A stretch of DNA of 32,748 nucleotides from Asanoa iriomotensis (GTDB lineage Bacteria; Actinomycetota; Actinomycetes; Mycobacteriales; Micromonosporaceae), in NCBI RefSeq assembly GCF_016862515.1, contig NZ_BONC01000081.1, positions 1 through 32,748 on the forward strand. The letters run 5' to 3'. This document shows positions 36 to 28,999 of the stretch, piece after piece. The notes under the pieces were generated by a model. It was not told where the DNA came from, ran no database searches, and saw nothing but the letters and a program-made list of their open reading frames with translations. The position numbers and the translations under genes are program-made. The stretch's first letter is position 1; each line of letters starts with the position of its first letter.

Positions 36-1622
36 CTAGCTCTTGGCCGGCTGGCGGTTGAGGCCGTAGGTGAGCGCGTCGACCAGGGCCCGCCAGCTCG
101 CCTCGACCACGTTCTCGTGCACGCCCACCGTCGTCCAGTCACGGCCCGCGCCGTCGTTGGTCTCGACCAGCACGCGGGTGACCGCGCCGGAGCCGTGCGA
201 GCCCTCGAGGATGCGCACCTTGTAGTCGCCGAGCACGAACCTCGTCAGCTCCGGGTAGTGCTTCGACAGCGCCAGCCGGAGCGCCTCGTCGAGGGCGTTC
301 ACCGGGCCGTTGCCCTCGGCTGTGGCGATGACCCGCTCGCCGCGCACCCGGACCTTGGCGGTCGCCTCGGAGACCACCGCCCCGTCCTCGCGGTGCTCGA
401 CCAGCACGCGGTAGGACTCCAGCGCGAACGGCCGCGGCACCTCGCCCAGCTCGCCACGGACCAGCAACTCGAAGCTGGCGTCGGCGGCCTCGAACGACCA
501 GCCGCCCGCCTCGAGGTCCTTGACCCGCTGGGTGACCCGGGACAGCTCGGTCGGATGGCCGGCCAGATCGATGCCGAGCTCGCGGCTCTTGAGCTCGATG
601 CTGGCCCGGCCGGCCATCTCGGTGACCAGGATCCGCATGTCGTTGCCGACGACCGAGGGCTCGACGTGGTTGTAGAGCAGGGGATCCACTTTGATCGCGC
701 TCGCGTGCAGGCCCGCCTTGTGTGCGAACGCCGCAGCTCCCACGTACGCCTGATGGGTGTCGGGTGCGATGTTGGCGATCTCGGCGATCGAGTGGGACAC
801 CCGCATCGCCTGTTCCAGGCAGCCGTCCGGTAGGACGGGCAGGCCCAGCTTGAGTTGGAGGTTCGCGACCACGGCGAACAGGTCGGCGTTGCCGGGGCGT
901 TCGCCGTAGCCGTTGGCGGTGCACTGGAAGTGCTCCACGCCGGCCTCGACCGCGGCGACCGTGTTGGCGACCGCGCACGAGGTGTCGTTCTGGCAGTGGA
1001 TGCCGAGCTGGTCGGCGGTGACGCCGAGCCGCGCGGTCAGGTCGGCGATCGCCGCCGTGATCCGGGACGGCAGCATCCCGCCGTTGGTGTCGCACATGAC
1101 CACGCGTTCCGCGCCGCCCTCGAACGCGGCGGCCACCACCGACGCGGTGTAGGCGGGGTCGAAGCGGTAGCCGTCGAAGAAGTGCTCGCAGTCGAGGAAC
1201 ACCCGGCGGTCGTTCTTGACGAAGTGGGCCACGGTCTCGCGGACCATCGCCAGGTTCTCGTCTCCGGTGGTGCGCAGGGCCCGCTCCACGTGCCGGAGGT
1301 CGGACTTCGCGACCAGGCACACGGCCGGCGTCTCCGCGTCGAGCAGGGCGCGCACCTGCGCGTCCTCGCCGACCCCGACGCCGGCCTTGCGGGTCGCGCC
1401 GAACGCGACGAGCTGGGCGTGCTTGAGGTCGAGCTCCGTGCGGGCGCGCTTGAAGAACTCGGTGTCCTTGGGCATCGCGCCGGGCCAGCCGCCCTCGATG
1501 AAACCCACGCCGAACTCGTCGAGCAGGCGGGCGACGGCGAGCTTGTCGACCACCGAGTAGCTGATCCCCTCGCGCTGTGCCCCGTCGCGCAGCGTGGTGT
1601 CGTACACCTGGTAGGAGGGCAT
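36..1622 (-). CDS. cimA: (R)-citramalate synthase
   Basis: Condenses pyruvate with acetyl-CoA to citramalate, the first step of a threonine-independent route to 2-oxobutyrate and isoleucine. The 528-residue protein opens with the DRE-TIM metallolyase motif YDTTLRDGAQREG (residues 5-17), has the metal-binding HCQNDTSCAVAN region and the NGYGERPGNADL motif in mid-barrel, then HKAGLHASAI, and ends in a LeuA-type allosteric dimerisation domain (GPVNALDEAL, LGDYKVRILEG). Length and the TTLRDGAQ(R)EG signature fit the CimA branch rather than LeuA. I chose the ATG just before PSYQVYDTT; the reading frame stays open 66 codons upstream, but that stretch overlaps a terminator hairpin and a leader ORF and lacks family similarity. 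A GGACGACAGGA stretch precedes the start. Transcription is probably controlled by the upstream attenuator. The allosteric domain suggests isoleucine feedback inhibition (family knowledge). Confidence 0.93.
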   Translation of the reverse strand: MPSYQVYDTTLRDGAQREGISYSVVDKLAVARLLDEFGVGFIEGGWPGAMPKDTEFFKRARTELDLKHAQLVAFGATRKAGVGVGEDAQVRALLDAETPAVCLVAKSDLRHVERALRTTGDENLAMVRETVAHFVKNDRRVFLDCEHFFDGYRFDPAYTASVVAAAFEGGAERVVMCDTNGGMLPSRITAAIADLTARLGVTADQLGIHCQNDTSCAVANTVAAVEAGVEHFQCTANGYGERPGNADLFAVVANLQLKLGLPVLPDGCLEQAMRVSHSIAEIANIAPDTHQAYVGAAAFAHKAGLHASAIKVDPLLYNHVEPSVVGNDMRILVTEMAGRASIELKSRELGIDLAGHPTELSRVTQRVKDLEAGGWSFEAADASFELLVRGELGEVPRPFALESYRVLVEHREDGAVVSEATAKVRVRGERVIATAEGNGPVNALDEALRLALSKHYPELTRFVLGDYKVRILEGSHGSGAVTRVLVETNDGAGRDWTTVGVHENVVEASWRALVDALTYGLNRQPAKS

Positions 1623-1666
1623 GTTCCTGTCGTCCTTTCGAAGGCGGTGGGGCCTGGCGCCGCAAC

Positions 1667-1727
1667 AAAAAGACCCCCCGCGAATGCGGGAGGTCTGCGC
1701 GCTCGGCGGTGTCGGGTGCCGGCGCGC
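1667..1727 (-). terminator. Attenuator hairpins of the cimA leader
   Basis: Read on the minus strand, a first hairpin (1697-1727) pairs GCGCGCCGGC with GCCGAGCGCGC (one bulged A, 10-nt loop). Its outermost base is the last base of the leader-peptide stop codon. Immediately next to it is a perfect 11-bp stem (AGACCTCCCGC / GCGGGGGGTCT, loop ATTC, 1671-1696) followed by TTTTT (1667-1671), an intrinsic terminator placed 44 bp before the cimA start. A terminator between a leader ORF rich in Leu/Ile and an isoleucine-pathway gene is the hallmark of transcription attenuation. I could not find a clear antiterminator pairing. Confidence 0.88.
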
Positions 1728-1759
1728 TAGCTGCCAATAATGAGGGCGAGCTGCGTCAC
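1727..1759 (-). CDS. cimA leader peptide (MTQLALIIGS)
   Basis: A GTG-initiated 10-codon ORF encodes MTQLALIIGS and ends with TAG exactly where the first attenuator hairpin begins. It carries two Leu and two adjacent Ile codons. The Ile codons are ATT, which is rare in this high-GC genome, so ribosome progress should be sensitive to charged tRNA-Ile. There is no usefully spaced Shine-Dalgarno (GGAG is 1 nt from the start), but a promoter-like pair places the predicted transcription start on the GTG itself, so the peptide is probably translated from a leaderless transcript. A TTG 30 nt upstream in frame is an alternative start. The role is inferred from architecture. Confidence 0.78.
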   Translation of the reverse strand: MTQLALIIGS

Positions 1760-1766
1760 GCTCCGT

Positions 1767-1795
1767 ACTTTGCCATGGCCGGGCCGTGACGCCAA
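1767..1795 (-). promoter_or_regulatory. Predicted promoter of the cimA leader
   Basis: On the minus strand, TTGGCG (1790-1795) and CAAAGT (1767-1772) are separated by 17 nt. CAAAGT ends 7 nt before the leader GTG, which would make the GTG the first transcribed codon. The -10 match is modest (3 of 6), but spacer and distance to the start codon are identical to those at the ilvB leader. Confidence 0.5.
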
Positions 1796-13217: not shown

Positions 13218-13301
13218 GGCGGGTGCCTTCGCTCGGTGCTGCGCTCGTGTGGTGTTGGCGATCTGTGGTGACCCCCGGGAGAGTCACGTGCGTCCGGGCA
13301 C

Positions 13302-13361
13302 AAAAATGGCCCTCGTGCAGATGCACGGGGCCAGCGCACTCTCTGGGAACGAGAGTGCGCT
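13302..13361 (-). terminator. Attenuator hairpins of the ilvB leader
   Basis: On the minus strand a first hairpin (13333-13361) pairs AGCGCACTCTC perfectly with GAGAGTGCGCT around a 7-nt loop, and its first base is the last base of the leader stop codon. The next hairpin (13307-13333) pairs TGGCCC and CGTGCA with TGCACG and GGGCCA (one bulged base) and is followed by TTTTT (13302-13306), an intrinsic terminator 85 bp before ilvB. The arrangement matches that at cimA. Confidence 0.9.
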
Positions 13362-13396
13362 CAGGTAAGTACTCGAGACGACCAGCGTGGCGACAT
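13361..13396 (-). CDS. ilvB leader peptide (MSPRWSSRVLT)
   Basis: An ATG-initiated 11-codon ORF ending VLT, with TGA overlapping the first attenuator hairpin. The Val (GTA) and Leu (CTT) codons are uncommon in this genome and lie just before the stop, where stalling would influence hairpin folding. No Shine-Dalgarno is present, and the predicted promoter puts the transcription start on the ATG. Attenuation of ilvB by such leaders is established in actinobacteria. With only one Val and one Leu codon this is a lean version, so the peptide is less certain than the terminator. Confidence 0.68.
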   Translation of the reverse strand: MSPRWSSRVLT

Positions 13397-27557: not shown

Positions 27558-27618
27558 TAGCAGTCTTCGATGCCTCGGCGCGGGCGCCCGCAACAGGAGC
27601 CTGCTCGGCTAGCATTTC

Positions 27619-27702
27619 CAGGTACTCGCGACTGGCGCAGCGAGGTGGAACTGACCACCGGGGAGCGACCACAGGCAACGCCGCACCGCGCGCCTGGGTG
27701 TG
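27619..27702 (+). ncRNA. ZTP (pfl) riboswitch
   Basis: Conserved blocks of the pfl motif appear in order: CGCGACTGGCG (27627-27637), then GGTGGAACTGACCACCGGGG (27644-27663) followed by AGCG, and after a variable stretch CGCGCCTGGGT (27689-27699), which forms the pseudoknot. ZTP riboswitches sense ZTP/AICAR accumulation during 10-formyl-tetrahydrofolate shortage and turn on folate and purine genes; glyA is a standard target. The expression platform is the short distance to the AGGAGG of glyA (27721-27726), suggesting translational control. No terminator hairpin with U-tract is seen. Confidence 0.88.
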
Positions 27703-27730
27703 GTGTTCGTCCGATGCCTCAGGAGGCGCC

Positions 27731-28999
<1,269 letters not shown>

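Follow-up and report, generated by a model that had tools for sequence, protein, structure and literature searches.

Leader peptides rich in branched-chain amino acid codons have been described in front of ilvB, leuS and leuA in Actinobacteria (PMC1262725). According to the available text of that study, terminators precede ilvB and leuS, as they do cimA in the present work, leuA carries a pseudoknot element instead, and no conserved structures precede genes of other amino acid pathways, cimA going unmentioned. In the same text, altering codons of the S. coelicolor ilvB leader is reported to have left regulation unchanged, which counts against attenuation by isoleucine. The LVVI codons of the M. 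tuberculosis ilvB1 leader are needed for induction, and the accessible part of that report states that a stalled ribosome favours an antiterminator whereas a ribosome at the stop codon blocks it (PMC13236596). For the “fast attenuator” of C. glutamicum ilvBNC, mutants described in the available text support adjacent antiterminator and terminator hairpins that compete for a boundary GCC (PMC11857589). RNA-seq in S. lividans detected ilvL and other leader peptides, several of them on leaderless transcripts, and none of the eight leaders named in the available text lies at cimA (PMC8079986).

The stretch of DNA analysed here (32,748 nucleotides from Asanoa iriomotensis, hereafter the window) carries a leader of this kind before cimA. 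Like the M. tuberculosis ilvB1 leader, as far as that is described in the available text, it combines a short ORF holding branched-chain codons with a terminator before the gene, but ilvB1 has LVVI codons whose need is demonstrated, whereas the cimA leader has Ile codons known from sequence (PMC13236596). Hairpins with adjacent bases and a U-tailed terminator are common to cimA and C. glutamicum ilvBNC, while the target, cimA, and the Ile codons differ; here the published description, in its available part, was compared rather than the sequence (PMC11857589). In that description the ilvBNC leader peptide starts one base from the transcript start (PMC11857589), and the cimA leader is probably similar. 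A cimA leader is absent from the available texts of PMC1262725, PMC8079986, PMC12452182, PMC13236596, PMC11857589 and PMC4833913. Our literature search returned no cimA attenuator; subscription papers fell partly outside its scope, so a listing elsewhere is possible. A 2017 paper by Wolf, to which PMC8079986 refers for leader peptides, is reportedly the Actinoplanes RNA-seq paper, and SCO5529 is presumably the S. coelicolor cimA. The kind of attenuator is thus a known one; cimA as its target and a sensor run made only of Ile codons appear to be new.

The window contains a minus-strand group of branched-chain amino acid genes, named by NCBIfam as ilvB, ilvN, ilvC, serA, leuB, ilvE and cimA. The presumed target, cimA, encodes citramalate synthase (36 to 1622, minus strand; TIGR00977, 604.7 bits against a cut-off of 450) and starts at an ATG (1622–1620). 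Ahead of it the original prediction placed a leader ORF, a hairpin beginning at the leader stop codon and a U-tailed terminator, and all three are confirmed by the sequence and a terminator scan. The leader ORF (1727 to 1759, minus strand), recognised by reading and by its conservation, runs for ten codons from GTG (1759–1757) to TAG (1729–1727) and encodes VTQLALIIGS, the codons after GTG being ACG CAG CTC GCC CTC ATT ATT GGC AGC. Hairpin P1 (1697 to 1727, minus strand), supported by folding and covariation, has ten base pairs and one bulged A, with arms GCGCGCCGGC and GCCG-A-GCGCGC; its first base (1727) is the last base of the leader stop codon. Directly abutting it is P2 (1671 to 1696, minus strand), an 11-bp terminator hairpin found by the terminator scan and supported by covariation, which reads AGACCTCCCGC-ATTC-GCGGGGGGTCT and then TTTT. 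The U tract that follows, UUUUGUU (1664 to 1670, minus strand), was read from the sequence, and its T run is conserved in the leader alignment. From the end of P2, 48 bases remain to the cimA ATG. The fold of 1790–1660 has an energy of −65.7 kcal/mol (z = −4.2), and none of 200 shuffles was as stable. An ORF at 1903–2259 on the plus strand lies beyond the leader and reads away from cimA, so P2 does not end an upstream gene.

Loci for comparison were picked by their likeness to the window’s cimA, namely the best 80 of 588 confirmed named stretches, plus the window’s genome and 80 relatives; the leader counts are therefore not those of a random sample. At E ≤ 0.001 the protein search matched 81 of 81 genomes, counting the window’s own; some of these matches are weak or partial. 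Among the named matches listed (best 80 of 588), the nearest was from Asanoa hainanensis at 96 per cent identity. We fetched 155 upstream regions and merged six duplicates, which left 149 distinct regions. In 122 of these a script identified a short ORF with at least two tandem Ile codons and a terminator behind it. The remaining 27 consist of 12 in which P1 and P2 were recognised by eye, 11 without the element, three paralogues (L153–L155) and one on a cut-off contig (L054, with only 24 bases upstream). With the paralogues and L054 left out, P1, P2 and leader Ile codons are present in 134 of 145 readable cimA orthologues (122 by script, 12 by eye), so the conservation in relatives that had been proposed as the check on the original prediction is there. 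The Ile codons of the 12 loci read by eye are single, interrupted or, at L152, paired; eleven orthologues keep the hairpins but have one Ile codon or an interrupted Ile run in place of the tandem, which counts against an Ile-sensing attenuator. Tandem Ile codons with P1 and P2 are kept in Micromonosporaceae, Streptomyces, Pseudonocardiaceae-type genera, Geodermatophilaceae, Glycomyces and Thermobifida, and across leaders both the size of the P1 loop and the stretch between P2 and cimA differ widely. A covariance model of the cimA leader found matches in 76 of 81 genomes at E ≤ 1 and, across the phylum, in 88 of 296 genomes at E ≤ 0.01.

The putative sensor is the tandem of Ile codons, ATT ATT (1736 to 1741, minus strand), marked by the conserved tandem run and by ATT/ATC interchange. 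Synonymous swaps are frequent across the 122 leaders (ATT ATT in 70, ATT ATC in 15, ATC ATT ATT in eight, and others). The original claim that these adjacent ATT codons are rare ones agrees with the window’s cimA, which has 0 ATT against 14 ATC; more widely, ATT makes up 106 of 166 Ile codons in the leaders but, at 73 loci, 54 of 1238 within cimA itself. The sensor had been proposed to respond to leucine as well as isoleucine. Only the isoleucine half of that proposal survives, Leu simply being the residue that most often precedes the Ile run (66 of 122 leaders).

Besides the synonymous variation of the Ile codons, signs of translation come from the promoter-like elements. A −10-like element, CAAAGT (1767 to 1772, minus strand), was read 7 nt upstream of the leader start codon, and this placement suggests that the leader probably begins at the transcript 5′ end. 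The hexamer NANNNT lies 6–8 nt before an in-frame start in 108 of 122 leaders, compared with 13–30 of 122 at eight control distances, which again suggests a leaderless transcript. A possible −35 element, TTGGCG (1790 to 1795, minus strand), 17 nt upstream of the −10 element, is a weak match read from the sequence and was not picked up by a promoter scan of the window. The leader is probably translated from a leaderless transcript that starts at or beside the GTG, as the position of the hexamer indicates.

For covariation analysis, the 104 short-spaced leaders among the 122 were reduced to 61 rows by a 90 per cent identity filter, and this alignment folds into P1 and P2. Pairing is satisfied in 93.3 per cent of cells. 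Changes on both sides occur in 13 of 21 pairs (7 of 10 in P1, 6 of 11 in P2), and the covariation score is 0.289, versus 0.149 for shuffled and at most 0.087 for slid alignments. The window site scores 82.1 bits against the 61-leader model (E = 5.9e-24 within the window), a match that is partly by construction because the window sequence is among the 61. Given this conservation and covariation, a chance origin of the leader is untenable. P1 and P2 lie within a narrow range of each other in all 122 leaders, with a gap of −2 bases in 53, −1 in 4, 0 in 58 and +1 in 7; because the stretch folded reached only three bases into P2, these counts leave no room for a larger overlap. Without a ribosome, P1 and P2 thus overlap by one or two boundary bases in 57 of 122 folds, bases whose identity the stop codon also fixes. 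In the window, the first two bases of P2 can pass to P1, but with P2 already complete this shift costs 4.2 kcal/mol.

We consider it very probable that a ribosome-mediated transcription attenuator sensing charged Ile-tRNA controls cimA. Transcription would start at the leader GTG or next to it, and the ribosome would read about six codons before reaching two or three Ile codons. When Ile-tRNA is short it would be expected to stall, mostly on the first of these, and its front edge would then stand just before P1, which could form; in 108 of 122 leaders, folded P1 begins 11–14 nt past the first Ile codon. Placing the ribosome on the last Ile codon instead lowers the mean probability of the outermost P1 pair to 0.01, and so only a first-Ile stall leaves P1 whole. 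Lying flush against P2, P1 would impede terminator closure, and polymerase would enter cimA. With plentiful isoleucine the ribosome would reach the stop codon (at or within P1’s 5′ half in nearly all leaders) and hold P1 open, whereupon P2 would close and transcription would stop upstream of cimA. Against this scheme, P2 is predicted in every ribosome state in the folds (mean probability 0.96–1.00, n = 122). Conservation and covariation, codon identity, the gene and operon context and the P1–P2 abutment are observed here; stalling, the transcription start and the effect of P1 on termination we infer, partly from the experimentally tested ilvB attenuators of C. glutamicum and M. tuberculosis.

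By naming the element an attenuator, the original prediction also implied a classical antiterminator. The leader and terminator stand; the antiterminator does not, none having been found on the terminator 5′ arm by duplex energies, a column-pair scan or nascent-RNA folds. Pairing of upstream RNA with the P2 5′ arm does not exceed that of shuffles (mean z +0.38, n = 122), and by spacing class, under a simpler shuffle, mean z ranges from 0.39 to 1.09 with no enrichment. When all column pairs of the 61-row alignment were scanned, no conserved alternative helix touched this arm. A three-part switch in the style of the E. coli trp leader might still operate if its antiterminator partner were short or clade-specific and hence missed. 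In its favour, nascent RNA ending at the P2 5′ arm, left unmasked after the second Ile codon, pairs a mean of 2.53 arm bases, up to eight in some leaders and six in the window, and single leaders such as L126 and L092 offer fairly strong arm partners. However, shuffled arms pair equally (2.87 bases), and a ribosome on the first Ile codon would cover the partner bases: with a 13-nt ribosome edge at that position, 120 of 122 nascent folds leave the arm entirely unpaired, and a mean of 0.02 arm bases are paired versus 0.37 for shuffled arms. We judge such a switch unlikely. A separate test of whether the exposed stretch, including the P1 loop, pairs with the terminator 3′ arm led to rejection of that idea (mean z −0.12).

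The freedom of the arm in these folds bears on the preferred attenuator as well. With 120 of 122 arms free, a ribosome at the first Ile position masks even the shared boundary that the C. glutamicum model calls for, which makes this part of the explanation slightly less probable. The published ilvBNC hairpins, as described in the available text, share a GCC (PMC11857589), whereas the cimA test folds overlap by 0–2 bases, and these are masked by the first-Ile ribosome.

Second matches to the cimA-leader model in many relatives sit just upstream of ilvB. The window’s own ilvB is preceded by such a sibling attenuator, predicted from model R1 (E = 3.8e-9, filters off) and folding at 13301 to 13385 on the minus strand; its leader ends GTA CTT ACC TGA, and its P1 (AGCGCACTCTC/GAGAGTGCGCT) abuts a terminator. 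Across 20 ilvB loci, leader codons read by eye include Val and Leu and in no case tandem Ile, and a single Ile codon occurs in 11 of the 19 ilvB leaders read. The terminator script missed 5 of 20 ilvB leaders, the window’s own included, and the hairpin gaps counted here are therefore those of the cimA leaders. At six loci, of which four are confirmed by TIGR00396 and two by reading, leuS is preceded by two or three consecutive Leu codons. With Ile runs at cimA, Val/Leu at ilvB and Leu at leuS, leader codons follow the gene. Sensor codons often end in A or T (ATT at cimA, counted; GTA and CTT at ilvB, by eye). Two of three genomes fetched from one family have LVVI codons and abutting P1 and P2 before ilvB; the third (L226) is without them. 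Among 39 model loci read, L211, L212, L220 and L224 match none of the cimA, ilvB and leuS contexts and may be chance. At L220, the weak model match lies before an aminotransferase-like gene, named by reading, which is followed by a serA-like match, and its leader codons are not clear.

The gene context of the orthologues without a leader bears on a second alternative. In all 11, the 500 bases upstream match the end of leuB (nine) or ilvE (two), so cimA is not the first gene there. Four distant-group loci have a leuB-ilvE-cimA operon, headed by a leader that contains Val and Ile codons (L196/L231, L199/L232, L200/L233 and L221/L234). One further locus (L235, G050:C1:490000–497500) has ilvB-ilvN-ilvC-leuB-cimA in one row, with cimA lacking a leader of its own. 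P1 might be a mere pause hairpin that lets the ribosome catch up, with P2 a constitutive partial terminator and isoleucine without effect, and P1 and P2 are indeed compatible in the folds. This would leave unexplained both the Ile runs at cimA as against other codons at ilvB and leuS, and the finding that the leaderless orthologues are those in which cimA is not first, and we hold it to be quite improbable.

The inverted repeat in P1 could alternatively be a DNA operator for a regulator protein. Its outer GCGC hardly varies, and the three outer pairs are identical in 61 of 61 leaders, an invariance that would suit a protein site and is itself neutral on pairing. The arm spacing ranges from a few to over 40 bases, which is unusual for a dimer site, the inner P1 pairs covary like RNA, and the adjoining codons and terminator would be unexplained; an operator seems very unlikely. 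At the window site no Rfam family, T-box included, reached its gathering score, and a loose threshold gave six weak matches (best E = 0.18), all far under gathering scores. A riboswitch directly binding isoleucine or another small molecule would fit a conserved and structured 5′ leader but not the absence of any Rfam match near gathering score, nor the lack, Ile codons aside, of a conserved unpaired core, loop sequences differing freely, and is extremely improbable.

Returning to the Ile-sensing attenuator, it may be one form of a general Actinomycetota design in which the switch hairpin abuts the terminator rather than capturing it. A stall on the first sensor codon would leave this hairpin whole, and abutment, or a hold on one or two bases, would block the last terminator pairs, with Ile codons at cimA, Val/Leu/Ile codons at ilvB and Leu codons at leuS. 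We offer this generalisation tentatively and think it slightly more apt to fail than to hold.

Two observations concern other parts of the genome. A search for ilvA in the window’s genome with TIGR01127 gave no match over the cut-off. Partial threonine dehydratase-like matches on two contigs (G000, C2:290249–290647 and C72:38124–38846) together nearly cover TIGR01127 and are perhaps one ilvA split over contigs. In the window itself, a ZMP/ZTP riboswitch (RF01750) matches at 27618–27706 on the plus strand with 50.5 bits against a gathering score of 39. It overlaps the start of an ORF called at 27698–28999 on the same strand, and the real gene start may be further downstream.

If the proposed control of cimA is true, a wide range of actinobacteria would have a control of the pyruvate route to isoleucine that is specific to one amino acid and distinct from the shared one at ilvB. 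Leader codons predict the operon product, and they may aid in distinguishing citramalate synthases from isopropylmalate synthases, which are similar. Together, the cimA, ilvB and leuS leaders would provide many natural variants on how an abutting hairpin could prevent intrinsic termination.
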